Below are positions 1,678 to 20,384 of a stretch of 22,747 bases of DNA, piece after piece. The DNA comes from a virus. How positions within the stretch are numbered: the stretch's first letter is position 1; each line of letters starts with the position of its first letter. Both the position numbers and the translations under genes were made by a program. Below the pieces are notes generated by a model. The model saw only the letters and a program-made list of their open reading frames with translations. It did not search any database and was not told the DNA's origin. The stretch covers positions 1 through 22,747 of the IMG/VR virus record IMGVR_UViG_3300033980_000156; one strand, written 5' to 3'.

Positions 1678-3318
1678 CTAGGCGTTTCCGACCGCGACGC
1701 GAAGGGCCCGGCTGCTGCCGTTGCTGATGCTGGACGCAAGCGCGCGCTGAATCACGGGCATCTGCGACAGGACCACGTCGGCCGCGCCGCGAGGATCGAG
1801 CGACGTGACGCTCAGCGAGACTTGGATTCCTGCGCCGCGCGAGGCCGCGAAGGATTGCCCGCCGCCTTGGATGCCGAGCGTTGAGAAGCCGCCGCTACCC
1901 AGCGAGATGGAGCCCGCCGCGCCGCCAGCCGCAACGCCAGCCCCGCCGGCCGCGCCGACGCCAGCGCCGGCCGCAGCCCCACCGAAGCCAAAGAAGCCGA
2001 GCACGCGCAGCGCCGCTTGTTGCGCAAGGATCTGCGCGCCGAGCTGGACGAACGAGCGCCCAAGGTCGCGCAACGTCGCTTGCCCCTGGATCGCCTGCGC
2101 GAAGAAGTTGGAGAGCGCGTTGAAGCTGCCGAGGACGACTTGGTCGCCGATGCTGCTACGGATCGCGTTGCCGAGGTTGTCGAAGGACTGTGCGGCCTGC
2201 TCGGCGAAACTGGCGATTTGCTGCGTTTGCTGAACGGCCTCGGTGAACTCCAGCGGCAGGAACTGCGATTGCTCGCGGCGGCGATTCTGTGCGACACGGC
2301 CGGCGACAGCACGGCGACGCGCGTTGGCTGCGTTGAACTCGGCGCTGAAGGTGGAGCCGGAGCCGCGCGACGAGCCGGAGCCGCCGGAACCGCTGGGAAT
2401 GAACTCGAAGCCGCGCGGGATCTCGAAGAACTCGGGCGCGGGCGGGCCGAACTGTTCTCCGGTGCGCAGCCGCTGTAGCGCTTGCTGTTGAATTCCGCGC
2501 TGGATCTCCGCCTCACGCTCCGCGATGTAGTTGGAGAATCGAAGGTTCTCGGCAAAGATTTCGACCTCGCGTGCGGCACTTTGCAGCCGATTGCGCAAGT
2601 CGTCCGTGACGGCCACAGGATCTTCGGCGCGACTGACAGCGCCAGTCCGTGGATCTTTCGTGAACGACAGGCGTTGGCGGCCCTCGGCCGCAAGCGCTTC
2701 GACGAGTACGCGGAGCGAATCGGCCCGCCCGATGACCTGCGCCTCTTGGTCAGGCGAAAGCCCTTGCGTTGAAATGAAGTTCTGCGGGATCGTAAGAGAA
2801 CCAGTCCCCAGTCGCAGGGCTGGAATGTCTATCCCCGGCCCGCGGGATGCCTGCTCGGCGGCCTCGCGCGCCCGGCGCAGTGCGTCCCAACCCGCGGCGG
2901 TCTGCTTGAGGACTTCCTGCTCACGAATCAGCTTTTCCTCGTAAGCCGTAATTCCAAGCGCGTCGCGAAGAGCCTCGGCTGCCGCCTCCGCCGCCTTACT
3001 GACGAGGTCCAACGCCGACGAGAACCCGGCGACCTTTGCCACGACGTCGGCCGCAAAGATGCCGATAGCGGCCTTGCCGAGCGCCTCAAACTTCTTTTGC
3101 GCAACGTCGGCAAAGTCGATCGCCTTCTTTTTCGTCGCGTCGATGCTCGCCCCGGCGTTCGACACGCCAGCCGAGAGCTTCGACGCCGAATCGTCGACCC
3201 GGTCAAACCCCGCCTTCGCCGTCGTAGCGAAGTTGCCGACAGCCTTGTCGGCCTTTTGCAGCGCAGGCGTCAGCTCGTCGCGGACGGATACGTCGATGAT
3301 GAGTTTTTCGTCAGCCAC
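1678..3318 (-). CDS. Tail tape measure protein (546 aa)
   Basis: Tape measure proteins fill the tail tube lumen, set tail length and take part in DNA delivery. This 546-residue protein fits in order, composition and position. It begins VADEKLIIDVSVRDELTPAL, an N-terminal pattern common in short tape measures ('D.S..LTPAL.KA'). Long Ala/Gln/Glu-rich helices occupy about residues 15-110 and 190-400. A hydrophobic Gly/Ala-rich stretch near residues 425-480 could be a membrane-active segment. It directly follows the G/GT chaperone pair, the standard arrangement. The start is a GTG at 3316-3318 that overlaps the end of the GT reading frame by eight bases, with GAGGAA about ten bases upstream. The length is short for the family, predicting a short tail if the usual length rule holds. 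Confidence 0.9.
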   Translation of the reverse strand: MADEKLIIDVSVRDELTPALQKADKAVGNFATTAKAGFDRVDDSASKLSAGVSNAGASIDATKKKAIDFADVAQKKFEALGKAAIGIFAADVVAKVAGFSSALDLVSKAAEAAAEALRDALGITAYEEKLIREQEVLKQTAAGWDALRRAREAAEQASRGPGIDIPALRLGTGSLTIPQNFISTQGLSPDQEAQVIGRADSLRVLVEALAAEGRQRLSFTKDPRTGAVSRAEDPVAVTDDLRNRLQSAAREVEIFAENLRFSNYIAEREAEIQRGIQQQALQRLRTGEQFGPPAPEFFEIPRGFEFIPSGSGGSGSSRGSGSTFSAEFNAANARRRAVAGRVAQNRRREQSQFLPLEFTEAVQQTQQIASFAEQAAQSFDNLGNAIRSSIGDQVVLGSFNALSNFFAQAIQGQATLRDLGRSFVQLGAQILAQQAALRVLGFFGFGGAAAGAGVGAAGGAGVAAGGAAGSISLGSGGFSTLGIQGGGQSFAASRGAGIQVSLSVTSLDPRGAADVVLSQMPVIQRALASSISNGSSRALRVAVGNA

Positions 3319-4071
3319 GCTTCATCGCTTCCTCGCGCTTGCGGCGCTCTCGTTCGATTGTCGATCGCTCGGCGTTGATGACGTCACACGCGCGCGCGAA
3401 AAGCTCCGGCTGGTCCGACCATCCGCCAGCGTTCGGCAGGATTCCGCTTTCGAGCATGTGGTAGCTAGATAGCGCTTCCGCCACGTCATCGCTCGCATGG
3501 CTGTTCGGGCAGCGGCGCAAGAACTCGAAGCCCTTGCCGTCGCAGGCTTCGCAGTCACGCGAGGAGCCGTGGCACTTTGAGCAAGTGATCCGAAGGACCG
3601 GCCGCGGCGCAGGCTTGTCGCAGCCCCACTCTTCCCTGAGCGCCGGGTCACGGTGGCAGCTCGGGCAGCGAGGCTTGACAGTGTCGTCCCAAAGCCCACG
3701 CGCGACCGCCCTTAGTTTCCCACGTCGGCCTCGGACAGCGCGCGCTCGATCTCCGGCGAGAAGGCGAGTTCCTCGCGGTCCTTCTCGGGGATGCGCGACA
3801 GAGTCTCTTCCGTCGCGAGGCCGGCCTGGTCCTTTTTGAACTCGGCCGGATGCCCGTTCGCTTCGAGCAGGTTTTCCCAGCCGGCGAGCGTGTAGCGAAG
3901 CTGCGCGATGATTGCATCGAAGCCGCTTTCCTTGAACGCCTGAGCGACCGCGCGGCCGCCTGCGATCGAACGCGGCTTGAGGATGTAGACGGTCTGCTTT
4001 TCCTTGGGAAGCGCGCGCTCGCGCGAGACCACGTAGCGAACCGTCTTTGCGTAGTTGACTGCGATTGCCAT
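3311..4071 (-). CDS. Tail assembly chaperone GT, made by -1 frameshift (253 aa)
   Basis: This is the long form of the tail chaperone, equivalent in layout to lambda gpGT. Ribosomes read the 119-aa G frame and slip -1 on GGGAAAC (3715-3721). They then continue at CTA (3713-3715) for 134 codons to the TGA at 3311-3313, giving 253 residues. The extension frame has no ATG, GTG or TTG from the slip site until the TTG at 3518-3520, which lies after most of its cysteines. Its conserved-looking part is therefore reachable only by frameshifting. The extension carries CPSC, CSKC and CEAC pairs plus single Cys residues, and CEACDGKG resembles a DnaJ-type zinc-finger repeat. It ends in a charged helix (ERERRKREEAMKRG). 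In lambda the T domain is needed to load tail tube subunits onto the tape measure; the same role is inferred here. I read the fusion frame by hand. Confidence 0.82.
3671..3721 (-). promoter_or_regulatory. Programmed -1 ribosomal frameshift site: slippery heptamer plus downstream stem
   Basis: On the minus strand the G frame ends GTG GGA AAC TAA, so bases 3721 to 3715 read G GGA AAC. That is an exact X-XXY-YYZ heptamer in the correct phase, followed at once by the stop. Lambda uses the closely similar GGGAAAG. Two nested stems can be drawn downstream. GGGCTT (3692-3697) pairs with AAGCCT (3671-3676), and an outer GGGCGG (3706-3711) pairs with CTGCCC (3663-3668), starting three bases after the heptamer. 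The heptamer and its phase are seen directly. Pairing was done by eye, and its stimulatory role is inferred. Confidence 0.8.
3712..4071 (-). CDS. Tail assembly chaperone G (119 aa)
   Basis: Short form of the tail chaperone, ending at the TAA (3712-3714) immediately after the slippery heptamer. It is a mixed helical, charged protein, starting MAIAVNYAKTVRYVVSRERA and ending ALSEADVGN. It lies between the tail tube and tape measure genes, where lambda-type phages carry G and GT. The ATG (4069-4071) has a strong ribosome binding site, GGAGGG, nine bases upstream (4081-4086). Sequence alone would not identify it, because these chaperones are very divergent. The call depends on position, size and the frameshift signal. 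Confidence 0.82.
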   Translation of the reverse strand: MAIAVNYAKTVRYVVSRERALPKEKQTVYILKPRSIAGGRAVAQAFKESGFDAIIAQLRYTLAGWENLLEANGHPAEFKKDQAGLATEETLSRIPEKDREELAFSPEIERALSEADVGN

Positions 4072-6326: not shown

Positions 6327-6949
6327 GCGCCCCTCGCTTGCTGGACGATGCGACGCGCGGTCGCGTCAAGGATCGACCGGCGTTGGCTGGCGTTCTCCCG
6401 CCAAGTGCGATACCAGCCGAGGTTGCCGTGGATGCGGACGCTTGTAACGAGCTTCCATAGAAGCGCGAGCTTCCCGCCTGCGCCTTGGCGCTCCGCAATG
6501 AACAGCCCGCCCTTCTTCGACTTGAAGACGAACGTGTCCGCTCCGCTCGCGCGGTAGGCTCCAGCGCCGCCGGCATACTTGCCCTTGATCGTTCCCGACG
6601 CCGTCTTGGTCGCGTCCAGCGGGACGGTCAGGAACTTCTTGGCCTTCGGGCGAATGATGCCGCCGCGCTCTTGGATGTCGGCGTACTTGACTCCCGCCAC
6701 GAAAACGCGCGTGCGAATCCCGCCGATCCCGCCGACCTGCCGCGTCTCCGTCGTGAATCGGTCGCGCAGGAACCCCGTGCGAGTCTTGACGAGGCCCGCG
6801 CCGTCGCCGCGCATCCGCTGCGCCATCGACGTAACGTGCTCCTCGCCCATGCGCTTGGACGCGATGACAAGCTCGCGCTCCACGATCGTGGGCAAGCGCC
6901 CGAGCATCCGGCGCAGTCCATCGTCGACCACTCGCGCGTTGACGTTCAC
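6323..6949 (-). CDS. HK97 gp10-like neck / minor tail protein (208 aa)
   Basis: A basic 208-residue protein whose centre carries YADIQERGGIIRPKAKKFLTVPL-like spacing. The 'E-x-G-G-x-I-x-P-K-x-x-K-x-L-x-x-P' signature is typical of HK97 gp10-family and related neck or minor tail proteins. It begins with a helical segment (residues 1-45) and ends with a helix rich in Arg. It lies directly after the gp6-like connector, as expected for this family. Its GTG start (6947-6949) overlaps the connector stop as GTGA. These proteins are thought to act at the head-tail junction or in tail completion; the exact role is unsettled even in model phages. Confidence 0.65.
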   Translation of the reverse strand: MNVNARVVDDGLRRMLGRLPTIVERELVIASKRMGEEHVTSMAQRMRGDGAGLVKTRTGFLRDRFTTETRQVGGIGGIRTRVFVAGVKYADIQERGGIIRPKAKKFLTVPLDATKTASGTIKGKYAGGAGAYRASGADTFVFKSKKGGLFIAERQGAGGKLALLWKLVTSVRIHGNLGWYRTWRENASQRRSILDATARRIVQQARGA

Positions 6950-7761
6950 CGCAGGAACACCCGTCGATGGCCGGCGAGCGCCTGCTTCGAGCTCTCCAGC
7001 ATTCCGAGCGCTTCGTCGAACGCGGTCGAGCCGGCGTCACTCGTGACGTTTCCGCCCGGCGTGTTGCGCCGGTTGTATTCGTAGGCGCACTGGATGTCGG
7101 CCGCGCGCGCGATGTCTGGATAGGTCGCGACGAAGTCGGCCGTGTCGTCAGCCATACCGCCGACGTAGACAACCTGGACGTAACCGGGACGCCGACGATC
7201 GTTCAGCGGCATCTCGATCAGGAAGCGCACAAGGCCCGCCGCCGAGTCCTCCAGGACGTACAGGTCCGAACTCATCGCCGTGGTTCCAGCGAAGTCGCTC
7301 GGGTGCGATGCGTACTTGATCGACGTAATCGACGAGACGGGCGCGGCGTCGAGCGTTACGACCGTCGAAAGCTGCGCCAGCGGAAACGTCTTTGTGTTGG
7401 TAGTCCTCAACACCTGCCGACGCATGTAGCGCTCGAAGCGGCTCGACACGTCGGAGATGATCTGCCCGATTAGCGAATCGTATGCGCTCGTTGAAAAGCC
7501 GCCGAGCGTGCTCTTGACGCGCGTGAGTGTGGTTAGGTCCATGCTGTAGACGGCCTCTGCCCAGTCGAGATAGATGCGGGTTACGCCGTCGCTGTCGAGC
7601 ACAAACGGGCGCGCGGTGGGCGGCAGTCCCGTAGGGTCGAAGTCGACCGTGATCTCCGTAGTTCCGTCCGAGTCAAGGACGGTCAGCGTGTCGCCGCCGT
7701 CGACTGCGACGTGCGCAATCGAGCCGTCCGAGCGCCGAACCGGAACCTTGTAGATGGTCAC
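6946..7761 (-). CDS. Head-tail connector, HK97 gp6-like (271 aa)
   Basis: Connector protein of the gp6/gp15 type, forming the ring that attaches below the portal. The diagnostic part is residues about 75-271: an LTTLTRVKSTLGG-type helix start, a second helix SLIGQIISDVSSRFERYMRR, then a beta section and C-terminal helices (PDIARAADIQCAYEYNRR). The first 75 residues form an extra beta-rich N-terminal domain (VTIYKVPVRRSDGSI onward) that typical gp6 proteins lack. I place the start at GTG 7759-7761, eight bases past the upstream stop, with GGAG ten bases before it. The frame is open further upstream, but that part overlaps the preceding gene and reads as Arg/Ser-rich noise. Confidence 0.75.
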   Translation of the reverse strand: MTIYKVPVRRSDGSIAHVAVDGGDTLTVLDSDGTTEITVDFDPTGLPPTARPFVLDSDGVTRIYLDWAEAVYSMDLTTLTRVKSTLGGFSTSAYDSLIGQIISDVSSRFERYMRRQVLRTTNTKTFPLAQLSTVVTLDAAPVSSITSIKYASHPSDFAGTTAMSSDLYVLEDSAAGLVRFLIEMPLNDRRRPGYVQVVYVGGMADDTADFVATYPDIARAADIQCAYEYNRRNTPGGNVTSDAGSTAFDEALGMLESSKQALAGHRRVFLR

Positions 7762-7768
7762 CGCGGCG

Positions 7769-9643
7769 TCACTCCTGGTTGAGGACGATGTGGGACACGT
7801 CCAGCGTCGTCGCCGGGGACGATGCGACAGCCGTAGTCGCGCCAACCTCGTTGACCAGCCCCGACGCGCCGCCGATCGTCATTACCGTGTCCGTCAGCGC
7901 GGTGATGGTGCCTGTGCTCAGGTTGTTCCCGGCGTTCGAGAACGACGAGAACGAAACCGCGTCCGCTGCCGTTCCAAGTCGGAACCCGTCGGCGATCCAG
8001 CTGCCGGAGGCGCGCGTGAACGTCTTAGCCGCGGCGTCGACCGTGATCGAAACGCCCGCCGCCGTGTAGCCGGCAATGTTGCGATTGCTCGCGTGGATTT
8101 GAAGCGCGGACGCGGCAGCCGGCGACGTGGTCGTGATCGTCGAAGCGTTGACCCACGTTCCCGTTGCCGTGTCGTAGTTCGAGCACTCCCACTCGCTCGT
8201 GTTGACGTTGCGGATGCGGAAGACTTGGTAGGTGTTCGCGACCGCAGGAATCGACGTAACAACTTCGGTCTGGTCCGCACTCGTCGCGCCGCCGTTGGCC
8301 GTGACGAAGCGCCAGACGGGCGAGTTGTTGCTTTCGCAGGTGACCGATCCGGCAGGCGACTCGTTGACAAGGGCTCCGCCGGAGCACTCCATGACCGTGT
8401 CAGTAAGCGCGGTGATCGCGCCGCCCGTGTTGTTTCCGGCGTTCGCGAATCCAGTCCAGGTAACCGTCATGCCGACGCGGAACCCTTCGGTGATGAACGA
8501 TCCGCTAGCGCGCGTGTAGGTCGTCGCCGAGGCGCTGACGACAACGCCAGAGAGCCCAGCGGTCTGGATGATCCCGGTAGCGCTGACGCTTGCGCCGCTG
8601 GATTCGTTCGTCATCGTCGCGCCGTTTTCGGTCACGGTCATGACGGTTGCCGTCAGCGTCGTGATCGTCGCGCCGTTCTGGTTATTCACAGCGTTGGCGA
8701 AACCAGTCCACTTCACCTTCAGGCCAACGCGGAAACCGTCGGCGATGAAAGAGCCGTTCGTGCGCGTATAGGTCTTGGACGTTCCGTTGACCGCGACGTC
8801 AGCAATCGGATTGCTCGTCGCAGGCGCACCGACGCGACGGTCGTAGTAGAGCCCGACGCCGTGGAGGCTGCCGCTGAACAGGTCCGTACCGCCGCTCGGG
8901 TCCGACTCGAACAGTCCGACCCACGCGCGCGAGCGCAGTAGCGCCGTGCGAAACACGATGTAGAACTCGGGCGTCAGGCCGCGTCGGCTCGTGTCCGTCG
9001 TCGAAATGCCGGCCACCATCGCGTTGGTCGACGGGCTGTTCGTGAGTCGGACGTACGACCCCGTCGCGTCCACCTGCGAAGACGCTGCGGTGGGGCTCGT
9101 TACCGTCGGCGTCGGCAGTCCGACCGTGTCGAACGTCGTGCCGTACGCCTTGCCGATAATGAAGCGCGGCGCGCGGATCGTCGACATGAACGGGTCGCCC
9201 TTGTAGTCGGGGCGCTCCGTGTTCGAGATGCGGACCTGAACCGTACCGTTCTCGTCGGTGATGCGATTCAGCCACGCCGACGAGACACCCGAAGCGCCGC
9301 CGCCGTAGGTGCCATCGCCGCGCAGGGGCCGAAGCGTGTCACTCGTGCTCGCGGTGCCAGTGCCTTGCGGCGTGGGGACCGTGCCGCGCGTGCCGTTCGA
9401 GCTGCCGCTCGTTCCGACCATCGTGGGCAGCTGCGCGACCGGGACAAGGACGCTGGAGTCGAGCGTCGCAAGGCCGCTCGCTGCGCCCGCGCCGAGCTCC
9501 GTGCGAAGCTCAGCCATCGTGCCGACGCTGACGCCGGTGCCGCCGACGCGACGCGAAAGCGCCGTGTCCGTTGCGTGCGTCGTGTTCGTGTCGGACTGCG
9601 AAACCGTTTCGACCGGGCGAACTTGCTTGGAAGCGTCTGCCAT
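7769..9643 (-). CDS. Fibre-like structural protein with three internal beta-modules (624 aa)
   Basis: A 624-residue Ser/Thr/Gly-rich protein. Residues 30-125 look like a fibre attachment or shaft region (GLATLDSSVLVPVAQLP and GDGTYGGG are phrases common in phage fibres). Residues about 130-275 and 440-520 read as the two halves of a jelly-roll, or receptor-type, sandwich (EFYIVFRTALLRSRAWVGLF, then YQVFRIRNVNTSEWECSNY). Between them sit two copies of a ~75-residue module; a third copy is near the C-terminus. The ATG at 9641-9643 is three bases after the preceding stop. The gene lies between the hydrolase gene and the connector gene, not in the tail-tip region. A capsid-surface fibre or decoration is therefore more likely than a tail fibre, but that is inference. 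No catalytic motif is visible. Confidence 0.6.
   Translation of the reverse strand: MADASKQVRPVETVSQSDTNTTHATDTALSRRVGGTGVSVGTMAELRTELGAGAASGLATLDSSVLVPVAQLPTMVGTSGSSNGTRGTVPTPQGTGTASTSDTLRPLRGDGTYGGGASGVSSAWLNRITDENGTVQVRISNTERPDYKGDPFMSTIRAPRFIIGKAYGTTFDTVGLPTPTVTSPTAASSQVDATGSYVRLTNSPSTNAMVAGISTTDTSRRGLTPEFYIVFRTALLRSRAWVGLFESDPSGGTDLFSGSLHGVGLYYDRRVGAPATSNPIADVAVNGTSKTYTRTNGSFIADGFRVGLKVKWTGFANAVNNQNGATITTLTATVMTVTENGATMTNESSGASVSATGIIQTAGLSGVVVSASATTYTRASGSFITEGFRVGMTVTWTGFANAGNNTGGAITALTDTVMECSGGALVNESPAGSVTCESNNSPVWRFVTANGGATSADQTEVVTSIPAVANTYQVFRIRNVNTSEWECSNYDTATGTWVNASTITTTSPAAASALQIHASNRNIAGYTAAGVSITVDAAAKTFTRASGSWIADGFRLGTAADAVSFSSFSNAGNNLSTGTITALTDTVMTIGGASGLVNEVGATTAVASSPATTLDVSHIVLNQE
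7820..8056 (-). repeat. Inserted beta-module, copy R3
   Basis: Residues about 530-608 of the 624-aa protein. Signature: TFTRASGSWIADGFRLG, FSNAGNN, TITALTDTVMTI, LVNE. It is closest to R2 in ITALTDTVM and lies near the C-terminus, after the second half of the putative sandwich. Confidence 0.7.
8333..8548 (-). repeat. Inserted beta-module, copy R2
   Basis: Residues about 366-437 of the 624-aa protein, separated from R1 by under ten residues. Shared signature: TYTRASGSFI-x-EGFRVG, WTGFANAGNN, AITALTDTVM, LVNES. It has a Cys near the middle and another at the end that R1 lacks. Confidence 0.7.
8573..8797 (-). repeat. Inserted beta-module, copy R1
   Basis: Residues about 283-357 of the 624-aa protein. 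It follows the pattern TYTR-x-x-GSFI-x-DGF-x-VG, W-x-GF-x-NA-x-NN, T-I-T-x-L-T-A-T-V-M, then a strand ending in NES. It shares this order with copies R2, R3 and R4. The copies are divergent at the DNA level. Confidence 0.7.
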
Positions 9644-9646
9644 GAA

Positions 9647-11038
9647 TCAGAATCCCCGCGAGGTGAGGAAGGCTCCAAGGACGGCCGACGAGAAGTCAGC
9701 GTTTCGCCCCTTGTTCCAGTTCGTCGCCGCTACCGTCGTGTTCGAGGTCGAGTTGCCCTGATACACCGCGACGTTCGACGTATTGCCCGCGGCGTCCAGC
9801 GCGTAGCCCATCGCGAACGCCTGCGCCTCTTCGTGGAGGTTGATGAAGCCGGGGTGGATCGTGCCCTCGGTCGCGAGCCCGTACGGGGCCGGGAGGATCT
9901 GGCGGAAGCTCGTTTCGCCGGTCAGCGCCGACGTGAACAGCGGGTCATCGGTGCCAGCGCCGACGCTCGCGCCAATGAACATCCACGCCACTTCTTTGAC
10001 GCGCGGGTTGTCCGACGTGATTTGCAGGTCAGCGTCCGCTTGGCGCTTCGTCTCCCACGGGAATTCAGCACCGCTCGCGCCGCTAACCGTGTCGGCCTGC
10101 CAGATGTAGTCGCCGGAGCGGAAGAAGTAGCCGCCACACCATGCGTGGTCGCCGTACTTATCCATGCCCGTTTCGACGCGCTCGATCGTCTCGCCGCCGG
10201 AGAGCGTCACGCGCAGCGCCGGGAAGATGTCGAGCGAGCCCGCGCCGCTAGCCTTGTCCGTGCGGACCGCGTACTGCTGCGAATCGCCGGTGATCGTCAG
10301 GCGGTTTCCCTTGACCCACGCGCCGGTTCCGCCGGTGATCGAGACCGACGTAGCGCCGATGCTGTGCGCGCCGTTCACTGTGTAGCTGTCGACCGGGTCA
10401 GTGGCCGCGACCTTCGACTTGCAAAAGCTCGACAAGATCGACTGGTGCTGATTGACCAGCACGAAGTTGCAGCGGTGGTCAAACTTCCGCGCGAAGCGAG
10501 CCTCGCCGCGCTGAATCGCCCCGCTGGCGTACTCGAACTCGCCGTCGCGCGCCAGCTGCGTTTTCACAACATCCCAGCCGCCGCTAGACAGGCCCCAGTG
10601 CAAGGACTTACCCGGCAGCGTGGAGATCGAGCCGCCCGCGCCAAAGAGCGCCGTGTCGGTCGCCCGGCTGCGAATCCACGCAATAAACGCCGCGTCTTCC
10701 TCGTGCGTCTCGGGCCAGTATTTCGCCTCAGGCTCGACCGCGCCGGGCTCATAGAAGCCGCCGGGCGTCGTGTCGTAGCTGATGACCGCGCAGCCCAGCG
10801 TATTCGCGAGGTAGAGCGCGGTTGAGTTGGAGCCGAGGTCGAGGTCGTCGGGGTTCATCTTCCCGCCGCCGTGCTTGAAGAACACCACGCGCCACGGCGG
10901 GGCGAGGTAGCCGCTGACGTTGCCGCCTCCGACCGGGTTGGTGGGCGGCCAGATGCGGACGCGCTGGAACTTCCCGCGCTTGCCCCAGCGACCCGAATAG
11001 GCCGCGGTCGTTCGGTCGAGCGTTGTGTAGTCCGGCAC
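9647..11038 (-). CDS. Alpha/beta hydrolase (putative esterase) of the fibre block (463 aa)
   Basis: The sequence shows a serine-hydrolase plan. HGGG at residues 56-59 after a hydrophobic strand (WRVVFFKHGGG) fits the oxyanion-hole loop of hormone-sensitive-lipase-type esterases. SLHWGLSSGGW at 145-155 fits a GxSxGG nucleophile elbow with Ser151. DDPLF (364-368) and HPGF (395-398) are candidate sites for the catalytic Asp and His, since HSL-type enzymes have a D-P-L motif followed by a His. A beta-rich segment (about 214-292) is inserted before the Asp/His part. The C-terminal 60 residues are Asn/Thr-rich and could be an attachment region. The GTG start (11036-11038) overlaps the previous stop by one base, with GGAGGG six bases upstream. 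A phage structural-block esterase could deacylate host surface glycans, but the substrate is not visible. Triad assignment is inference. Confidence 0.68.
   Translation of the reverse strand: MPDYTTLDRTTAAYSGRWGKRGKFQRVRIWPPTNPVGGGNVSGYLAPPWRVVFFKHGGGKMNPDDLDLGSNSTALYLANTLGCAVISYDTTPGGFYEPGAVEPEAKYWPETHEEDAAFIAWIRSRATDTALFGAGGSISTLPGKSLHWGLSSGGWDVVKTQLARDGEFEYASGAIQRGEARFARKFDHRCNFVLVNQHQSILSSFCKSKVAATDPVDSYTVNGAHSIGATSVSITGGTGAWVKGNRLTITGDSQQYAVRTDKASGAGSLDIFPALRVTLSGGETIERVETGMDKYGDHAWCGGYFFRSGDYIWQADTVSGASGAEFPWETKRQADADLQITSDNPRVKEVAWMFIGASVGAGTDDPLFTSALTGETSFRQILPAPYGLATEGTIHPGFINLHEEAQAFAMGYALDAAGNTSNVAVYQGNSTSNTTVAATNWNKGRNADFSSAVLGAFLTSRGF
10163..10399 (-). other. Beta-domain insertion within the hydrolase
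   Basis: Residues about 214-292. GAHSIGATSVSITGG, then GNRLTITGDSQQYAVRTD and LDIFPALRVTLSGGETIE, form a strand-rich unit of the sort found in phage capsid and fibre proteins ('GA...GATS..I.G......G..ltI.GDsq.Y.V......PALr...'). It lies between the proposed nucleophile and the proposed Asp/His, so it does not belong to the hydrolase core. Confidence 0.55.
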
Positions 11039-12561
11039 TAGAAGCCCTCCGCGCTGACGCCGTAGTTCTCAATCGCAAGACGCAGCGTCGTCAGTCCTTG
11101 ATACGTCGCGTCGTAGGTGTCGAGGTTGGCGATGCGGTCCACGCGCCAGCGCATTTGCAGGTTCGTGTCGTTCGCCATCCAGTTGTGACCGCCCGTCACG
11201 CGGCCGCCCGCCTCGCGGCGAATGCCGGTTTGTCCCGCGCCGCTCGCAACGAGGAACTCGCCCCAGTATTCGTAGGAGTCGGGCCCGAGGTTGTAGAGCT
11301 CGATTCGGTAGCGGAACGCGCGATTGCCCGTCCACGTCTGCCCGAGTTCGCCGGTCAGCATTCGCATTCGGTTCGCGCCGGTGTAGACCGGAGCGCCGGC
11401 CACGGTCGGGTTCGGCTCAAGCACGAACTCGAAAAAGGCGTCGGCGTTGACCGTGTTCGCCGCGTAGCCGCAGCCGTCGAAGATGATCTTCGCGCCGTTG
11501 CGGAACTCGCCGGCCGCGACAAACTCGCCGTGCGCGTAGCCGAGCGTCTCGCTGAGCCCGCCAGACGACAGGCTCGCCTCAAGCCGTTGGTGCCGATCGT
11601 GCGGATATCCTTCGTAGTCGAGGCACGTCGCGACCATCCACGGGTAAAGGTGCTCCGTGTAGCTGGTCATGACAGCGACGCCGGGCGCTGACTCGGTCGT
11701 CAGCCCGCCGCCGACTTCGAGCGTCGTGTGACTGACCGCGGTAACGGTCTTCGTTCCGTTGTTCGGCCCTCCAGGGCCGCCCGTCGCGAATCCCGAGACC
11801 GTCAAGACGTTGCCGACGCTGAAGCCGTCGATGATCCAAGAGCCCGACGAGCGCACGTAGTGCCCGCCGCTGACACTGACAGCGGCAGCGTTCGTGAGCG
11901 CCGGGCCGTGAAGCGACGGAGCCGAGGCGTTTGCGCCAGCGATCCAAGGGCCACGCGCGCGGCGCGGCTGGAATCGGTCGAAGTGCTCGCGCTTGGGCTG
12001 ATACCGCGGAGCGTCGTAGGCGACTACGACGTCATTCGTGCTGATGCTGGTTTGCACCTGCCGGCCGCTGACGATCGGTCGCAGCTGGAGCGTCGAACCG
12101 CTCTTGCTCGCGTACACGCCAGATCCGCCGTGCGCCGCCGTCGCCGTGAGGTTGGACGCCGCGTTGACTTCAGCGCCAGCCGCGACGCCATCCAGCTTCG
12201 TCCCGTCCGTCGCAACGTCGCGCCCATCGACCGTGCCGCCCACGGTGATGTTGCCCGTGACCGCCAGCGACGCGACGCCAGACACCGCGTTCGAGTCATC
12301 GACGACGACGCCCGACGCTTGAATAGTCTTACCGCCCGTGCCGTTGTAGCGCGGCAGCGTGTTGTCCGTGCTGGACGCCGGGCCCGTCACGTCGCCGATG
12401 CCGCTGCCGCCGCCTACGGCTTCCCATGCGCCATCATCGCGCAGGAACTTGCTTCCGTCGCGCGTGCCAGTGGCAAGCAGCGCAGGGTCGATCGTGTCGC
12501 CGCTTTCGAGCTCGGCGAGCTGATTCGATGCGTTCAGCTTTAGCGGCGTGCGGGTCGGCAT
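11038..12561 (-). CDS. Fibre-like structural protein (507 aa)
   Basis: The N-terminal third is a typical phage fibre shaft. LKLNASNQLAELESGDTI and SKFLRDDGAWEAV (residues 7-49) are followed by GDVTGP...DNTLPRYNGTGG and ITVGGTVDGRDVATDGTKLD (residues 105-124). That last phrase is recurrent in tail and head fibre proteins. Residues about 200-226 and 301-507 form a beta-rich receptor-like domain with paired aromatic strands (AFFEFVLEPN, RAFRYRIELYNLG, WGEFLVASG). It is interrupted at about 227-300 by module R4, also present in the 624-aa protein. The ATG (12559-12561) lies one base past the preceding stop (TGA-A-ATG). The gene is the first of the three-gene fibre block downstream of the capsid genes. 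Head fibre or decoration is inferred from position; tail fibre is the alternative. Confidence 0.65.
   Translation of the reverse strand: MPTRTPLKLNASNQLAELESGDTIDPALLATGTRDGSKFLRDDGAWEAVGGGSGIGDVTGPASSTDNTLPRYNGTGGKTIQASGVVVDDSNAVSGVASLAVTGNITVGGTVDGRDVATDGTKLDGVAAGAEVNAASNLTATAAHGGSGVYASKSGSTLQLRPIVSGRQVQTSISTNDVVVAYDAPRYQPKREHFDRFQPRRARGPWIAGANASAPSLHGPALTNAAAVSVSGGHYVRSSGSWIIDGFSVGNVLTVSGFATGGPGGPNNGTKTVTAVSHTTLEVGGGLTTESAPGVAVMTSYTEHLYPWMVATCLDYEGYPHDRHQRLEASLSSGGLSETLGYAHGEFVAAGEFRNGAKIIFDGCGYAANTVNADAFFEFVLEPNPTVAGAPVYTGANRMRMLTGELGQTWTGNRAFRYRIELYNLGPDSYEYWGEFLVASGAGQTGIRREAGGRVTGGHNWMANDTNLQMRWRVDRIANLDTYDATYQGLTTLRLAIENYGVSAEGF
11662..11883 (-). repeat. Inserted beta-module, copy R4
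   Basis: Residues about 227-300 of the 507-aa protein. HYVRSSGSWIIDGFSVG, LTVSGFATG, NNGTKTVTAV and a final LTTESAPGVAV match modules R1-R3 of the 624-aa protein in order and spacing. It shows the same module reused in a neighbouring gene. Confidence 0.65.
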
Positions 12562-12562
12562 T

Positions 12563-12874
12563 TCAGTTGGCGGCCTTCGTTCGCTTGGGGACGGTCACGG
12601 ACGGGAGAGGCTTGGCGGCTGCCGAGCGAGACTCCGCGCCGTTGGCTTTCGTGTGGGCAGCGATCAGGCGCAGCGCCGTCGCGAGTTCGATCTTGCTCGG
12701 CTTCGCGCCATCGGCCGCGACTTCGAGCTTGTGCTCTTGACCCTTGAGAAACCGCGCTTCGCAGGGCGCGTCGGTATCAACGACGTAGCCCGCGCCACCG
12801 CGGTAGCGCATCTGCACCGAGGTCATGTCCTCGGGCCAGTGCAGGTGTTCGTTCTTCTTGACTTGCTTCAGCAT
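12563..12874 (-). CDS. Hypothetical small protein between decoration and fibre genes (103 aa)
   Basis: Not recognised. The protein starts MLKQVKKNEHLHWPEDMTSV, has a beta-like section to about residue 55 (MRYRGGAGYVVDTDAPCEARFLKG), a helix (KIELATALRLIAAHTKA), and a basic Pro/Ala tail (AAKPLPSVTVPKRTKAAN). I prefer the ATG at 12872-12874, which has GGAG eleven bases upstream. A GTG four codons earlier is too close to that site. Its stop is one base before the 507-aa fibre gene. Small proteins in this position are often capsid-associated or head-joining, but nothing here proves it. Confidence 0.6.
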   Translation of the reverse strand: MLKQVKKNEHLHWPEDMTSVQMRYRGGAGYVVDTDAPCEARFLKGQEHKLEVAADGAKPSKIELATALRLIAAHTKANGAESRSAAAKPLPSVTVPKRTKAAN

Positions 12875-12966
12875 GGCGGCGCGCACTCCGTATGCGCTTC
12901 GTCCCTAGTTGATGAGCCGGCGAGACGCGGGACACACGCCCCGCCGGCTTTCAGTTCACGTCAGGA
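12875..12966 (-). other. Short gap with a GC-rich hairpin, possible weak attenuator
   Basis: A 92-base gap between the decoration-like gene and the next gene. It contains a perfect 8-base inverted repeat, AGCCGGCG (12915-12922) and CGCCGGCT (12942-12949), with a 19-base loop. In the minus-strand transcript the hairpin is not followed by a U-run, so it is not a good intrinsic terminator. It might attenuate or stabilise the highly expressed capsid message. Speculative. Confidence 0.25.
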
Positions 12967-13416
12967 TCAGACCGGGAAAGGGCCCGTGGCGTTGGTCTGG
13001 ACGCCAGCCGTGCCGATCGACAGCGAATCGGTCGCGCCCCACAGGATGCAGCACGCCGAGACGTCGCTCGCCGTGATGCTGCCGTAGGTGAACGCCAGTT
13101 GCAGGTAGCGCTCGCAGCGCTGGAGGTCGATGGTGATCGACTTCAGCGTGCTGTCGTCGGTGTCGCCCCAGACCGGAATCGACGCGCCGGTGATGTCAGA
13201 GGCGGCGTCCGACACAAAGTTGTCCGACGACTCCTGCACCTTGCAGGTGATCGACGTTCCGGCCACGTTGCCGACCTGGACAACGAACGTCGCCCAGCGG
13301 AAGCCGAGCGTGTCGACGTTGAGGCACTGCGTCGCGTTCGGCGCAGTGTTGCCGAAATCGTCGGGCACGAGGGCGTTGACGATCTTGACCGCGGACTTGG
13401 GAGTGAGAGAAGCCAT
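12967..13416 (-). CDS. Putative capsid decoration / head protein (149 aa)
   Basis: A 149-residue beta-rich acidic protein following the major capsid gene. It starts MASLTPKSAVKIVNALVPDD. The pattern 'D-T-L-G-F-R-W-A-T-F-V-V-Q-V-G' followed by 'CKVQESSDNFVSDAASDITG' and a 'D-L-Q-R-C-E-R-Y-L-Q-L-A-F' strand recurs in unannotated proteins downstream of phage capsid genes. These are likely head decoration or stabilising proteins. The ATG (13414-13416) has AGGAG eleven bases upstream. It carries several Cys residues (for example ACCILWG), unusual for a secreted-type beta protein. Function is inferred from position and fold type. Confidence 0.55.
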   Translation of the reverse strand: MASLTPKSAVKIVNALVPDDFGNTAPNATQCLNVDTLGFRWATFVVQVGNVAGTSITCKVQESSDNFVSDAASDITGASIPVWGDTDDSTLKSITIDLQRCERYLQLAFTYGSITASDVSACCILWGATDSLSIGTAGVQTNATGPFPV

Positions 13417-13440
13417 GTGTGTGAGTGCTCCTGTGTCCGA

Positions 13441-14610
13441 TCAGGACGGACGGCAGAACGATTGCGGGTGACGGATGCCGATGTCGAAGAACGACAGGGC
13501 GCGGATGTGCTGCTGAGCGCTGGCGAAGTTCACCGCGTTCGTCGTGTCGATCTTCATGCCGCCCCACTGGGCGATCACGAGGTCGGCGAAGTTGCCGAAG
13601 ATCACTTGGCCGTCGCTGAGCTGCGTGCTCACGCGGACCGGGTAGCCGAGCAGCTCCGAGCCGTCTTCCGAAAGCAGGCGGCGACGCTCGTGGATCTGGT
13701 TGGTGGTGTTCGTACCGCCAGACGAGGTGTCGACGATCTGCTCCAGCTCCGCCATGTCGGCATTCGACACAGCCCAACCGAGACGGCCCGCAAGGGCGTT
13801 GTCGGCGCGCACTTCGCTGATGAACTGCGCGTACTGGTTGTAGGTGCCGGGGTCCGAGAGCGTCGTGGTGTTGACGCCCGACGCCGTCAGGATGCCCGTC
13901 GGCTGACCGCTCGCGCCCGTACCCGCGAGAGCCGCGAGGTCGAGCTTGAGCGCCATCTGACGCGCCATGTCCTCGCGCAGCATCGACTCGACGCCGGGCG
14001 AATCCATGCCGAGCAGGAGTTCGCTCACAACCGTCATGGCCGCAAGGCCGTGCGGCATCAGCTGGACTTGCTCGACAGCCGCGTCGCTCGCGGTGATCGT
14101 GCCGGTCTCGCCGATCCAGTAGGCCGTGGTGCCGCCGCCGACGCGGGGGATCTGGATCGGAGCGCGGGTCAGGCCATCAAGGCGAGTCGCGCCCAGCTCA
14201 ACGCAAACGGTGTTGGCGTAGAGCAGCGGGATCAGCTGCGAAGTGAGGACTTCGTTCGGGACGAGGAAGCCGCCCGCGGTGTCGACGCCGAAGCTCATCG
14301 CCTTGGCGCGCACTTCGTTGTGCATCGCGTGCTCGAGCGGGCAAACGCTCATGTCCTTCGTGAGGACGCCGAGCATCGCCTTGGCGAAGGAGTAGCCCTT
14401 GCCCTTGTGCGTCGCGTCTTCGCTACCGGGCAGCGAGAACTTCGCAACGCGCGACTCGAACTCCGCCGACTTCTTGGCGAGCTCTTCCTGGAATTGACGT
14501 TGGAGCCGTTCGACGAGAGCCGAGTCCCGATCGTCCAGCGACTTCTTGAGTTCGGCGTTGATCTTCGAGGCCATCGCCTCGAGTTCGCCGCCTTCGACCT
14601 TTTGAATCAT
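13441..14610 (-). CDS. Major capsid protein, HK97 fold (389 aa)
   Basis: Phage_capsid (HK97 gp5-type) protein that builds the icosahedral shell. Residues 1-60 form a charged coiled-coil delta domain (SLDDRDSALVERLQRQFQEE), normally removed by the prohead protease. The core starts near residue 100 with SFGVDTAGGFLVPNEV, which is highly typical. Then come an E-loop-like region (TRAPIQIPRVGGGTTAYWIGE), the spine helix with LREDMARQMALKLDLAALAGTG and GQPTGIL, and the P-domain end (SELLGYPVRVSTQL, FGNFADLVIAQWGG). Length and order are normal for the family. The ATG (14608-14610) overlaps the protease stop as ATGA, and a GGGGG tract lies ten bases upstream. Confidence 0.95.
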   Translation of the reverse strand: MIQKVEGGELEAMASKINAELKKSLDDRDSALVERLQRQFQEELAKKSAEFESRVAKFSLPGSEDATHKGKGYSFAKAMLGVLTKDMSVCPLEHAMHNEVRAKAMSFGVDTAGGFLVPNEVLTSQLIPLLYANTVCVELGATRLDGLTRAPIQIPRVGGGTTAYWIGETGTITASDAAVEQVQLMPHGLAAMTVVSELLLGMDSPGVESMLREDMARQMALKLDLAALAGTGASGQPTGILTASGVNTTTLSDPGTYNQYAQFISEVRADNALAGRLGWAVSNADMAELEQIVDTSSGGTNTTNQIHERRRLLSEDGSELLGYPVRVSTQLSDGQVIFGNFADLVIAQWGGMKIDTTNAVNFASAQQHIRALSFFDIGIRHPQSFCRPS

Positions 14611-15599
14611 GAGCGTTGCGCCCCCTTTGAGCGCGAGAGAACGGCATCGAATGCCGCGGAGAAGAACGCTTGCGGGTCAACAGACCGGCTATCGGGGGCG
14701 GGCGTTTGCGTGTCCGCGTTTGCGGCCACCGGGGCCGGCAGGGACGACACGCCGCGCGAGACGATTTCCAGCTGACCTTTCAGCGCCGCAAGCTCCGCGC
14801 TGAAGGTGGTTTTGAGCTCGGCGAGCGAGCGCTCAATGCGCTCCAGAGCTTCGCCGTGTTGGTCTTTCACAACGCTAGGCGCGACTTCAGCGACCTTGGC
14901 GACGGGGACCACGACGCGAGACGAAGGCTCGAACGTCTTGGCGACCATCGCGGCGAGCGACTTCTCGACCTCGCCGGCCTCGACCATCGAATCAAGGCGG
15001 CGCATGAGCGCGGCGGGATTCGCGGGGACCGTGACGACCGACAGCTCGAGCAGCTCGGCGCTTTCGTAGAGAACGCCGTATTCGCCGACGCCAAGCTCCT
15101 TGCGCTCCGCTTCGTCCTCGGGGCGGCGCACCTTCAGCGGCATGAATCCGACCGACACCGCCGGCATATCGCCATCGAGAACCAGGCGCGCGAGAATGCG
15201 GCCGGCTTCGTCCTGCTTCTCGTCATCGAAGAACTGCGAATTGGCGAGCAGCGCAGCGCGGCCCTCAGCTCGGCCCTTGCGCACGTCGGTAACGAGACCG
15301 AGCGGCAGCGCTTCGTTGTTGTGGTTGCGCAGGAGGACGGGGTTCTTCAGGAAGTTGTCGAGATGCCAGCCCTTGACGCGGATGACGTCGCCCATGCGGT
15401 CGGGCGTCTCATCGCTGGCGACGTGCTCGACCGTGCGCGCTTCCTTGTCAGCGCTCTTGCGCGTCGTGCTCGCGCGGACGCGAACGTGCTCGGCGTCGCT
15501 CTTGATCGCGTAGACGTCCTCGGCCTTGATCGACGCCAGTTCGTCGGGCGTTGCCACGCCGGCCCAGATGCGCGGGGCGATGTCTGCGAATTTGCTCAT
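14607..15599 (-). CDS. Prohead protease, HK97 gp4 / peptidase U35 type, with scaffold-like tail (330 aa)
   Basis: Matures the capsid by removing the N-terminal delta domains. The protease domain is about residues 25-205. SDETPDRMGDVIRVKGWHL leads to the family His motif LLRNHN (His93), and DGDMPAVSVGFMP contains the Ser motif (Ser149); LSVVTVPANPAAL follows, as in the family. Residues about 247-280 form a coiled coil (ALERIERSLAELKTTFSAEL). The Pro/Ala-rich C-terminus ends in a short helix; such extensions can act as internal scaffold. The chosen ATG (15597-15599) lies four bases after the portal stop. The frame is open a little further upstream, but that segment overlaps the portal gene and reads as basic noise. 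Confidence 0.9.
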   Translation of the reverse strand: MSKFADIAPRIWAGVATPDELASIKAEDVYAIKSDAEHVRVRASTTRKSADKEARTVEHVASDETPDRMGDVIRVKGWHLDNFLKNPVLLRNHNNEALPLGLVTDVRKGRAEGRAALLANSQFFDDEKQDEAGRILARLVLDGDMPAVSVGFMPLKVRRPEDEAERKELGVGEYGVLYESAELLELSVVTVPANPAALMRRLDSMVEAGEVEKSLAAMVAKTFEPSSRVVVPVAKVAEVAPSVVKDQHGEALERIERSLAELKTTFSAELAALKGQLEIVSRGVSSLPAPVAANADTQTPAPDSRSVDPQAFFSAAFDAVLSRSKGAQRS

Positions 15600-15603
15600 G
15601 TGG

Positions 15604-17868
15604 TCAGTCCTCGAAAACCGGGGCCGTAGTGCAGCGGCACTGGATGACTTCCTCCGCGGGCCCGTTTTGGTCCTGCGGGTAGGCAAGGCCGTTCTTGAAA
15701 CGCCCGCCAAGGCTCACGACGTCGCCGTCAAGCGCCACGTGCGACTCGCGCACAGCGCCGTCGCCTTGCGTGATCCAGCGAATCTTCGTGATGCCGTCCG
15801 ACTTGAACTGCTCGAAGCGCGCCGACTTCGCAGCGTGCCCCGCCTCGGTCCGTGCGATGACCTGCGCGCGCGCGTCCTTGTTGGCGAACACTTGGCGCAC
15901 GGAGCCTTCGAGCTCCGGCAGGCGCTCGCGCACGGCGGCCTGAAGGTCTGCGATGGACGAAGCCTGCGACAGCTCCTTCATCAGCGCCGTCTTGACGCGC
16001 TCGGCCAGCGTCGACGTGACGCCTTCGGCGAGCTTGATCTGTTGCGCGAGAAGCGCCTCGGTGATGCGCGGGTCGCCGACGCCGATCGAAATGGAGCTGA
16101 CTTCCTCAGCGGCCTGCGTCAGCGCAAGCGACGTGACGCGCTCAAGCGGCTGCTCGAACAGCCGGCGCATCTTCTCTTCCCATTCCGACTTGTTGAGCAG
16201 GAGGATGCGAACCTGTTCCTCAAGCTCGCTCGGCGCGATCTCCCGCTTGACGTAGCCGTCGAAGCGCTTCGTGTCGCGCGCGAACTCGCGCAGGCGGGCG
16301 AGCTGTGCGTCTGCGTAGCGGCGCAGGAGCGTGCGGGCGGCGCGGAAGACCAGCTGCTCGGCCGGGACGTGCACGGCCTTCTCGATCGAGCGCCAGTATT
16401 CGACGCGGGCCTCGCGCGTGGTTAGGTCGCGGGCGTCGCGCGTTTCGATGGACTTCTCGGACTCGTCGGGCGATTCTGCTTCGTCCCCGGCGTCATCCTC
16501 GGCGTCCTCGACCTCGGGCGCTTCGTCCTCGCCTTCGCTCTCGTCCGTGTCGTCAAGGCCGAACGGATTCGGCGCGACGTCGCCACCCTCAACCGAAGCG
16601 TCGACGCCGTGGAGCTCAAGCGCAGCGTTGAACGGGATGCCGACGGTTACCGACGTGCGCGCAGCGGCCTCAACCTTGGCCGAGTTGTCGCTTTGCAGCG
16701 CGGCGATCCCCGTCGTGTCGAAGTACGCGCGGAACTTGCGGTAGCGCGGATCGGCGAGCGACGGGAAGAACCGCTCGTTCAACACCGCTTCGATGCTGCG
16801 CAGGTACGTCAGCACGCCATTGGGGCCGACCCACATTGCGCGGGTCGCCTCGGCATACATTGAGTAGTTCGCGTCCTTGAACACGCCGACGCACGGCGCA
16901 GGGACGCCCACAAGGCCAAGCGCAGCCTCGCGGACCCATTCGAGGAGCTGGACGAACTCCATGTCCTTGGGCGCGAGCGTGTTCGGCGTGAACGTCGCCT
17001 CGCCGCCGAGCACAAGGAAGCGCCCGCGGTTGTCAGGGTTGGACTGGAAGCTGTCCATCTCCGCCTGCGAACGGCGGATCTCTTCGGCCGCGGTCTGCGT
17101 CGGAACGCTGATAACGCCGCCGGGCTCGCCACCATTCGCCGCGAGGGCGTGCAGGTAGCGGTTTACTTGGAACTTGACGGCGATGAGGCGGTCAAGAACT
17201 TCAGCGACTCCGACGCCGCGGAACTGCCGATAGGGGTCGGCGTCGATGAAGGGCAGCATTGCGTGCACAGGCCACGCCGATTCAGCGCCAGTCGCCGCGG
17301 ACCAGCGCCACGTCTTGGGCAGGCCCGTCGTCGCGTCCTGGTCGCCCTCTTGGACGATCCGGCCCGTCATCGGGATGATCTGCGCCGGAGTGGCGATGTA
17401 GTCGCCCTGGAGCTTTACCGGCTTGCCTTCGCTGTCCGCGAGCGCCCACCAGTTCTCACCGCACTCAACTCGGTTCAGCACGGCGCGGTACATGACCTCG
17501 CCGAACGTCATCGCGCGATTCGGGCGCGCAGTCACGAGGCGCACTAGCGGGTCGCTCGCGTCCGCCGGGTTGTCCATTTCCGGCCGGTCGTCTTGGTAGA
17601 CAACGAGCGGGACCGAGCGAACGGCTGACGCCTTCGTTGTCGCCGCGGCGTACAGGTACTCGTCCTGTTTCAGCGGGAACTTGGCCGACTCTTCGCCGCC
17701 AAGTTGGAGCCGCGCGCTGAGGATGTTGTCGATACCGGCGAACGCCTTCGTAATGCGCCCGCCCTGAAGCTCGACTAGTTGCGCACTGTGCAACGAGTGC
17801 AGCGAAATACCGCCAGCGCCGGAAAACGGCGGCTTACTGCCGGCGCGCGCTTGGGTTGCCGAGGACAA
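15604..17868 (-). CDS. Portal protein fused to MuF-type head morphogenesis domain (754 aa)
   Basis: Residues 1-435 are an HK97-type portal: an ITKAF-type start, then YLYAAATTKASAVRSVPLVVY, RPNRAMTFGEVMYRAV, GEPGGVISVPTQ and DMEFVQLLEWVREAALGLVGVP. Residues about 439-475 are a very acidic linker. Residues about 480-754 are helical and end in the MuF/SPP1 gp7 signature: ARTEAGHAAKSARFEQFKSDG, IRWIT, ESHVALDGD (His710), YPQDQNGPAEE and CRC (744-746). Separate portal and MuF genes are the usual arrangement, so this is a natural fusion. MuF-type proteins are minor head components, some ejected with the DNA. The start is a TTG (17866-17868); a stop (TAG) lies about 23 codons upstream with no ATG or GTG between, so a TTG start is needed unless translation begins further in. 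Confidence 0.9.
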   Translation of the reverse strand: MSSATQARAGSKPPFSGAGGISLHSLHSAQLVELQGGRITKAFAGIDNILSARLQLGGEESAKFPLKQDEYLYAAATTKASAVRSVPLVVYQDDRPEMDNPADASDPLVRLVTARPNRAMTFGEVMYRAVLNRVECGENWWALADSEGKPVKLQGDYIATPAQIIPMTGRIVQEGDQDATTGLPKTWRWSAATGAESAWPVHAMLPFIDADPYRQFRGVGVAEVLDRLIAVKFQVNRYLHALAANGGEPGGVISVPTQTAAEEIRRSQAEMDSFQSNPDNRGRFLVLGGEATFTPNTLAPKDMEFVQLLEWVREAALGLVGVPAPCVGVFKDANYSMYAEATRAMWVGPNGVLTYLRSIEAVLNERFFPSLADPRYRKFRAYFDTTGIAALQSDNSAKVEAAARTSVTVGIPFNAALELHGVDASVEGGDVAPNPFGLDDTDESEGEDEAPEVEDAEDDAGDEAESPDESEKSIETRDARDLTTREARVEYWRSIEKAVHVPAEQLVFRAARTLLRRYADAQLARLREFARDTKRFDGYVKREIAPSELEEQVRILLLNKSEWEEKMRRLFEQPLERVTSLALTQAAEEVSSISIGVGDPRITEALLAQQIKLAEGVTSTLAERVKTALMKELSQASSIADLQAAVRERLPELEGSVRQVFANKDARAQVIARTEAGHAAKSARFEQFKSDGITKIRWITQGDGAVRESHVALDGDVVSLGGRFKNGLAYPQDQNGPAEEVIQCRCTTAPVFED

Positions 17869-17884
17869 CGCGAGCCTGTATAGA
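17856..17884 (+). promoter_or_regulatory. Candidate sigma-70-like promoter for the RHH gene
   Basis: TTGCCG (17856-17861), a 17-base spacer and TATAGA (17879-17884) match four of six bases in each consensus hexamer. A start near base 17891 would leave a leader of about 45 bases before the ATG at 17937. The -35 region overlaps the portal start codon on the other strand. Prediction by eye only. Confidence 0.35.
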
Positions 17885-17936
17885 GGCCCGTTGGATCTCC
17901 ACTCGGGTCGACGCCACTTACCGGGGAACAGAAACT

Positions 17937-18131
17937 ATGGCCAACCGTCAGGGACGCCCGCCTCTCCCCACTGGCAAGCGAAGGGACGCGGAACTCAAGA
18001 TCCGGTTTACGCGCGAGGAGCTTGCGCGGCTCTACTCAGCAGCGGCAGACAACCGCACTCCGCTTTCGAGTTACGCGCGCCGGCTCATTGTGGCGGCTGT
18101 AGGCGGCCGAACTCACGCGCGGCCCGCCTAG
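17937..18131 (+). CDS. Ribbon-helix-helix-like DNA-binding protein, opposite strand (64 aa)
   Basis: A 64-residue basic protein on the strand opposite the structural operon. After a Pro-rich, basic start (MANRQGRPPLPTGKRRDAEL) comes LKIRFTREELARLYSAAADN and LSSYARRLIVAAV. That is the strand-helix-helix pattern of small RHH proteins (Arc/MobC-like): a short basic beta strand for DNA contact, a helix, a turn with L-S-x-Y-x-R, and a second helix. The ATG (17937-17939) has GGGGAA about nine bases upstream. The gene's last 47 bases overlap, tail to tail, the end of the minus-strand gene 18085-18408. Such proteins act as dimeric repressors or relaxosome accessories. Autoregulation or control of the portal-side transcript is inferred from its place beside the portal start. 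Confidence 0.6.
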   Translation: MANRQGRPPLPTGKRRDAELKIRFTREELARLYSAAADNRTPLSSYARRLIVAAVGGRTHARPA

Positions 18132-18408
18132 CTGCGGCGCGTAGCTCGCGCCTCGAGATCCCGACCGCGTCCAAGAACGCATTCAGCGCGATGCGCCCGG
18201 CCTTCGTGATCCGCACGATCTCGACTCGCTCGCCGCCGTGCGATTCGTCCGCGAACGTCTCCCGCGTGACGAAGCCGTTTTGCTCCAGCATGTTGAGGAC
18301 TTGCCCGTCGACGTCCAGCTCCACGCTGCGCTCGTCGGCCTCCCGAATGATGTAGAGCGGCGCGAACAGCATCCAGTCGCGCAGGGAGGGGCGGTTCATG
18401 GCCTGCAT
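18085..18408 (-). CDS. Possible winged-helix protein between terminase and portal (107 aa)
   Basis: Not assigned to a named family. The 107-residue protein has helices at the start (SLRDWMLFAPLYIIREADE), then DVDGQVLNMLEQNGFVTRET and VEIVRITKAGRIAL. That is a helix, helix, wing arrangement like the end of MarR- or PadR-type winged-helix domains ('L...G.V......g....v.iT..G...l'). A basic C-terminal helix follows (ISRRELRAAARRAAREFGRL). The ATG (18406-18408) is 15 bases after the terminase stop, with only a weak ribosome site; an ATG three codons later is an alternative. It is co-directional with the packaging genes and could be a regulator or a packaging accessory. Function unproven. Confidence 0.55.
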   Translation of the reverse strand: MQAMNRPSLRDWMLFAPLYIIREADERSVELDVDGQVLNMLEQNGFVTRETFADESHGGERVEIVRITKAGRIALNAFLDAVGISRRELRAAARRAAREFGRLQPPQ

Positions 18409-18423
18409 GGTAGGTCCAATCGG

Positions 18424-20018: not shown

Positions 20019-20384
20019 CTAGAAGTCCTCTGGAACCTGCGGCATGACGCCGGTGCGCATGAACTCCGACACCGCGGCTTCAAGCGTCGCGAGCTTCTCC
20101 GTAACGTCCATCGCCTCGGGCGCGCCCATCAACCGCTCGAATACGACCTTGGCCGCGGCTACGTCGCCTTGCTTCGCGATGTCCACCATCGCGCGCATGA
20201 TATCCGCGGCGTCCTTGGGCGTTACCGCCTTGTAGATCGCCTCGCGGTACTCGCGCGTGCGACGGCCGAGATAGTTCCCCGGCCCGCCCTTGTTGCCGCG
20301 AGCGAACAGGCCATCCGGTCGGCGTCCGTCGCCGCGGTCCTCGGGGTGATGCTTTGTCATGCGAGAAGTACCGGCCAGCGCCAC
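20019..20384 (-). CDS. terS: Terminase small subunit-like, DUF5681-type N-terminus (121 aa)
   Basis: Recognises phage DNA and hands it to the large subunit. Support is position directly before the large terminase gene and the sequence. A basic Gly-rich segment, GLFARGNKGGPGNYLGRRT (residues about 25-43), is the DUF5681-type 'GN.GGPGN..GRR' motif. It is followed by helices EYREAIYKAVTPKDAADIMR and VDIAKQGDVAAAKVVFERLMG, the usual 'vTp.D...i...lv..Ak.GD..AAk..le..lG' pattern. The C-terminal helix may oligomerise. The frame starts at GTG 20382-20384, which has GGGAA about seven bases upstream; an ATG at 20358-20360 is an alternative with a weaker site (113 aa). Confidence 0.72.
   Translation of the reverse strand: MALAGTSRMTKHHPEDRGDGRRPDGLFARGNKGGPGNYLGRRTREYREAIYKAVTPKDAADIMRAMVDIAKQGDVAAAKVVFERLMGAPEAMDVTEKLATLEAAVSEFMRTGVMPQVPEDF

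Follow-up and report, generated by a model that had tools for sequence, protein, structure and literature searches.

The gene that occupies positions 9647 to 11038 of the window, i.e., of the whole 22,747-base IMG/VR virus record of a metagenome-derived phage (66% GC), likely encodes a member of the alpha/beta-hydrolase superfamily, as judged from motif statistics and from its ranking against a profile of hormone-sensitive-lipase-like (HSL-type) esterases. We favor the view, at about even chances, that this protein is a divergent, virion-associated esterase that carries an inserted beta-domain at the position of the cap, resides on the particle together with the fibres, and uses Ser151, His395 and Asp365 to act on esters of the host surface.

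Genomic Context of the Hydrolase Gene

The phage is HK97-like and probably a siphovirus. Its genes follow each other in the order small protein, large terminase, portal-MuF, protease, capsid, two small proteins, fibre-like gene, hydrolase, fibre-like gene, head-tail connector, tail terminator and a likely tape measure (weak match), after which an open ORF runs into the end of the contig. The features that frame the hydrolase gene are:

13441 to 14610, minus strand: major capsid protein of the HK97 type (PF05065, E 8e-40)
11038 to 12561, minus strand: upstream fibre-like gene, 507 aa (phrog_32829 tail fiber, E 5e-11; TAGTG coupling to the hydrolase gene)
9647 to 11038, minus strand: alpha/beta-hydrolase-like protein, 463 aa (ORF; profile ranking against HSL-type esterases)
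7769 to 9643, minus strand: downstream fibre-like gene, 624 aa, containing repeats of a small beta-domain (resembles the upstream fibre)
6946 to 7845, minus strand: head-tail connector (phrog_442, E 1e-14)

A preliminary description of this DNA had given the ends of the hydrolase ORF exactly but not its strand, and had placed it between two fibre-like genes with a one-base overlap as the coupling device; both statements hold. The ORF reads from a GTG start at 11038 to a TGA stop at 9647, and the TAG stop of the upstream fibre-like gene shares its G with this GTG (TAGTG), a junction that has GGAGGG closely ahead of it. Only three bases separate the TGA from the start of the downstream fibre-like gene. 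Third-position GC of the hydrolase ORF (0.873) matches that of the neighboring genes, which marks it as a real, resident gene. On both sides the fibre assignment is backed by matches: the upstream protein resembles cyanophage and roseophage fibres, and the C-terminal domain of the downstream protein resembles Salmonella phage tail proteins. Both fibre-like genes have in common a repeated small beta-domain (SGSxIxDGFxVG...TAL/VxxTxMxV), whose last copy in the downstream fibre is 45-50% identical to the Salmonella phage tail proteins.

The closest relatives of the capsid protein, at about 33% identity, are those of the Synechococcus siphoviruses S-LBS1 and S-CBS3, whose tail-fibre genes lie in the same interval; the large terminase reaches only about 25% identity to any phage record. 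A single ORF (15604-17868) joins the portal and a MuF head-morphogenesis domain (PF04860 and PF04233), and a small protein for which the profiles gave no identification (20019-20384) stands in the position of the small terminase subunit. The ORF at 3322-3699, ahead of the tape measure, has a third-position GC of 0.63, unlike all other ORFs, and may be misframed or may be part of a frameshifted tail chaperone.

Sequence Motifs of the Hydrolase-Like Protein

The signatures on which the preliminary description had relied, HGGG, GLSSGG around Ser151, and the later DDPLF and HPGF, are all present in the order and at the positions given there. Together with a further stretch that we recognized by alignment, they are:

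10862 to 10873, minus strand: HGGG, residues 56-59, candidate oxyanion hole (motif and shuffle statistics)
10676 to 10729, minus strand: EAKYWPETHEEDAAFIAW, residues 104-121, resembling the HSL motif PExxFPaxxED..AA..W (HSL alignment A2 and profile alignment)
10577 to 10594, minus strand: GLSSGG, residues 149-154, candidate nucleophile elbow with Ser151 (motif and shuffle statistics)
9935 to 9949, minus strand: DDPLF, residues 364-368, candidate acid Asp365 (motif; weak C-half profile support)
9845 to 9856, minus strand: HPGF, residues 395-398, candidate catalytic His395 (motif)

HGGG is preceded by the strand-like segment RVVFFK. Among 300,000 composition-preserving shuffles, 32 contained HGGG followed by GxSxGG 60-120 residues further on, corresponding to p of about 1e-4 per protein; this figure has to be scaled up by how many proteins were read, and the motifs taken alone are consequently suggestive of an esterase but no proof of one. 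In 0.6% of the shuffled hydrolase sequences a DPL was followed by a His at a distance of 28-32 residues. GxSxG by itself is a weak signature, since the protein contains a second copy at residues 356-360. GLSSGG agrees with the general GxSxGG pattern and departs from the GD/ESAGG of HSL enzymes, and the sequence near the motifs, such as the KMNP that follows HGGG, deviates from that of active HSL enzymes.

Profile Comparison With HSL-Type Esterases

In searches of Pfam, NCBIfam, PHROGs and PDB the hydrolase part had no match with a meaningful E-value; the best library match was the HSL model of NCBIfam (E 0.13), with HGGG in register, and the family cut-off of Abhydrolase_3 (PF07859) was not reached. 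We built an HSL profile from esterases of plasmids and of two mycobacteriophages; it begins ahead of the oxyanion motif and extends past the nucleophile. With local HMMER scoring against this profile the protein stayed at noise level, and ungapped motif-block scores were likewise not significant. When the whole N-half profile was aligned to each protein, a procedure chosen after the local tests had come out null, which somewhat weakens this evidence, the hydrolase scored 7.1, compared with -13.5 (sd 5.2) for the mean of the background, and ranked first of 150, i.e., ahead of 149 real bacterial and phage proteins, with an annotated alpha/beta-fold hydrolase as the runner-up. Shuffled versions of the protein averaged -18.9 (z 6.2), and those in which both motifs were kept averaged -15.1 (z 4.5); none of the 300 in either set reached 7.1. 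Across 20 gap settings and in competition with 181 other ORFs, the protein took rank 1 of 182 in each of the 12 settings with gap-open values of 4-8, and was first in one of the eight with values of 10-12, where its lowest rank was 7. Similarity to the alpha/beta-hydrolase superfamily thus exceeds that of background proteins at gap-open 4-8. As the local HMMER and block scores were not significant, the HSL-like signal is spread along the length of the protein.

The recognizable stretch is VEPEAKYWPETHEEDAAFIAWI, which aligns with LAPEHKF-PAGLEDCLAAWRWL of the HSL enzymes. In the best profile alignment Ser137 stands opposite the profile Ser, and residues 153-154 stand opposite the GG, so that Ser151 is not firmly placed; we prefer Ser151 because it alone lies within GxSxGG. 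The protein shares with the HSL-like (bacterial family IV) esterases of the Abhydrolase_3/BD-FAE kind the succession HGGG, PExxF/Y..P..ED..W, GxSxGG, DPL and, 30 residues on, an IHxF-like motif, along with the profile similarity of the N-half. It differs from them in falling below every family cut-off, in having nine additional residues ahead of the PE motif and about 14 ahead of the nucleophile strand, and in possessing a beta-domain insert, about 75 residues long, in place of the helical cap.

AlphaFold models of the whole protein and of residues 24-212, computed without homologs, both had a pLDDT of 30. Their secondary structure fits an alpha/beta-hydrolase but carries no weight at this pLDDT, and Foldseek searches with the two models yielded nothing usable, as the comparison is meaningless at such a value. 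The missing family match, the pLDDT of 30, a glycine content of 12% and the selection of this finding out of many ORFs would also suit a glycine-rich structural fibre accessory that displays the motifs by chance; in view of the shuffle statistics and of the ranking against real proteins we regard this as improbable. The assignment to the alpha/beta-hydrolases made in the preliminary description consequently gains statistical backing from the shuffles and the HSL profile, although it does so without a matching family model.

The Inserted Beta-Domain and the C-Terminal Half

Downstream of the nucleophile region the protein contains a segment that the preliminary description does not mention:

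10169 to 10405, minus strand: inserted beta-domain, residues about 212-290 (partial resemblance to distal-tail and P22-type coat proteins)

Residues 214-286 match phrog_1302 (distal tail protein, E 0.00038) and phrog_283 (major head protein, E 0.0043), and the insert also matches a 129-aa protein of Vibrio phage V6Aob encoded directly after the tape measure (E 6e-5) and, weakly, P22-type coat proteins. Residues about 214-286 thus represent a beta-domain common to PHROG 1302, PHROG 283 and the insert, which sits in structural proteins there but in an enzyme-like protein here. Alpha/beta-hydrolases commonly bear caps after the sixth strand, ahead of the helix that comes next. Since the insert follows the strand-like FVLVNQ and precedes the acid region, it would occupy the cap position of the fold.

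The fibre-hydrolase-fibre gene order and the tail- and coat-like insert make an association with the virion plausible, and we consider it somewhat more probable than its absence. The earlier proposal of a virion component is strengthened by these two observations; it is not helped by the N-terminus, in which no fibre-type anchor was recognized. The lack of a recognizable fibre-type attachment domain would fit a soluble alpha/beta-hydrolase that functions outside the particle late in infection, either as the product of a cargo gene in the structural operon or as a cell-envelope esterase that aids lysis in the manner of mycobacteriophage LysB. Soluble HSL-like esterases do exist in phages, e.g., Courthouse gp91 and Gaia gp70 of mycobacteriophages, and LysB is itself an alpha/beta-hydrolase (PMC7022511). 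However, the gene is coupled to fibre genes and not to a lysis gene, and the protein contains a virion-type beta-domain, which leaves the soluble enzyme rather unlikely. Courthouse gp91 and Gaia gp70 are phage-encoded HSL-type enzymes like the protein studied here, but they measure about 260 aa, are devoid of the inserted beta-domain, and, in the stretches that were read, do not lie among genes annotated as structural. LysB, likewise a phage alpha/beta-hydrolase esterase, shares features with cutinases and has no lid (PMC7022511); it acts in lysis, and its oxyanion residues differ from HGGG.

In the C-terminal half, the 30 residues from Asp365 of the DPL motif to His395 equal the Asp-His spacing of DphAN1 (295/325), Xtj8 (246/276) and EstJ6 (240/270) (PMC10537300). 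With an HSL profile of the C-half the hydrolase ranked 2 to 13 of 182, and because these ranks are weak, Asp365 and His395 are candidates only. Related contigs carry identical hydrolase DNA and hence leave the catalytic residues without an evolutionary signal. The weakly supported acid/His half and the motif surroundings unlike those of active HSL enzymes, such as KMNP after HGGG, would fit a non-catalytic fold that the adsorption apparatus uses for binding or as a structural module. HGGG, GxSxGG and the candidate Asp and His nevertheless stand in catalytic order and with the published Asp-His spacing, and we judge a non-catalytic role to be unlikely.

A GDS at residue 251 and the HP at 395 could recall an SGNH (GDSL) esterase of the sort seen in the known phage deacetylase tailspikes. 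The GDS, however, falls inside the structural beta-insert, and GxND and DxxH are absent from the whole protein; membership in this family is thereby largely refuted, and we rejected it as hardly credible.

A Proposed Model for a Particle-Borne Esterase

The ORF, its motifs, the similarity of the N-half to the HSL profile, the order of the genes and the resemblance of the insert are observations; the model that we infer from them for fold, triad, catalysis, virion location and substrate can be put as follows. The protein would be a serine hydrolase of the HGGG oxyanion type, with a pattern nearest to that of HSL/family IV esterases, and would be made in one coupled operon with the two fibre proteins. 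It probably rides on the particle with these fibres, attached through the inserted domain. The candidate Ser151, activated by the candidates His395 and Asp365, would then attack ester bonds, for instance those of O-acyl groups of a host surface polymer, while the fibres grip the cell. The protein may be an active esterase directed against host surface polymers.

Esterases of phage particles are known mainly with SGNH domains, as in the deacetylase tailspikes or tail fibres of E. coli phage G7C (gp63.1), Klebsiella prophages (receptor-binding proteins) and Pectobacterium phage Possum (gp66) (PMC13123978; PMC9569702). The job proposed here is the same, an esterase borne with the adsorption fibres, but fold and motif set are different, and the enzyme is encoded by a separate gene between the fibre genes. 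More tentatively, and with some doubt on our part, the protein might represent an alpha/beta-hydrolase of the HGGG type in which a particle-docking structural beta-domain of phages has taken the place of the cap. Such a virion enzyme would be of a kind undescribed in the literature searched and would stand independently beside the SGNH tailspikes as an esterase solution. If true, such an alpha/beta-hydrolase, constructed around a virion domain, would be an independent answer to the task performed by the SGNH enzymes and would show one way to fit an enzyme onto a phage particle. Such enzymes can escape all standard family libraries.

Related Contigs and Other Phage Hydrolases

A homolog search of IMG/VR recovered only near-identical copies of the same phage, GTDB genomes contained no homolog of the hydrolase, and phage and plasmid records gave matches only to the insert or by chance. 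Because of its excessive diversity, the HSL alignment A2 could not serve as a search query and was dropped. A degenerate DNA pattern for HGGG...GxSxGG led to a methyltransferase-like ORF, to frame-shifted chance matches and to one unrelated secreted alpha/beta-hydrolase-like protein, none of which we retained. One IMG/VR phage lineage (L035, match 3046-3309; L040, 3265-4305; L038) encodes a secreted, lipoprotein-like alpha/beta-hydrolase with HGGGGG...GMSQGGW and weak Peptidase_S9 and Abhydrolase_1 matches.

The only non-identical relative found is L014 (3398-4963), whose terminase is about 73% identical to that of the window; this contig ends before reaching the hydrolase region. Among the near-identical copies, L004 and L006 were compared with the window over positions 13168-18936 and 7806-18004. 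Hydrolase and capsid of L004 are identical to those of the window and its upstream fibre gene has one synonymous change, whereas protease and portal differ by 78 synonymous and 16 nonsynonymous codon changes (the overlap of both ORFs is counted twice). L006 is identical from capsid to portal and differs in the terminase. These mosaic copies reflect either recombination or assembly chimeras.
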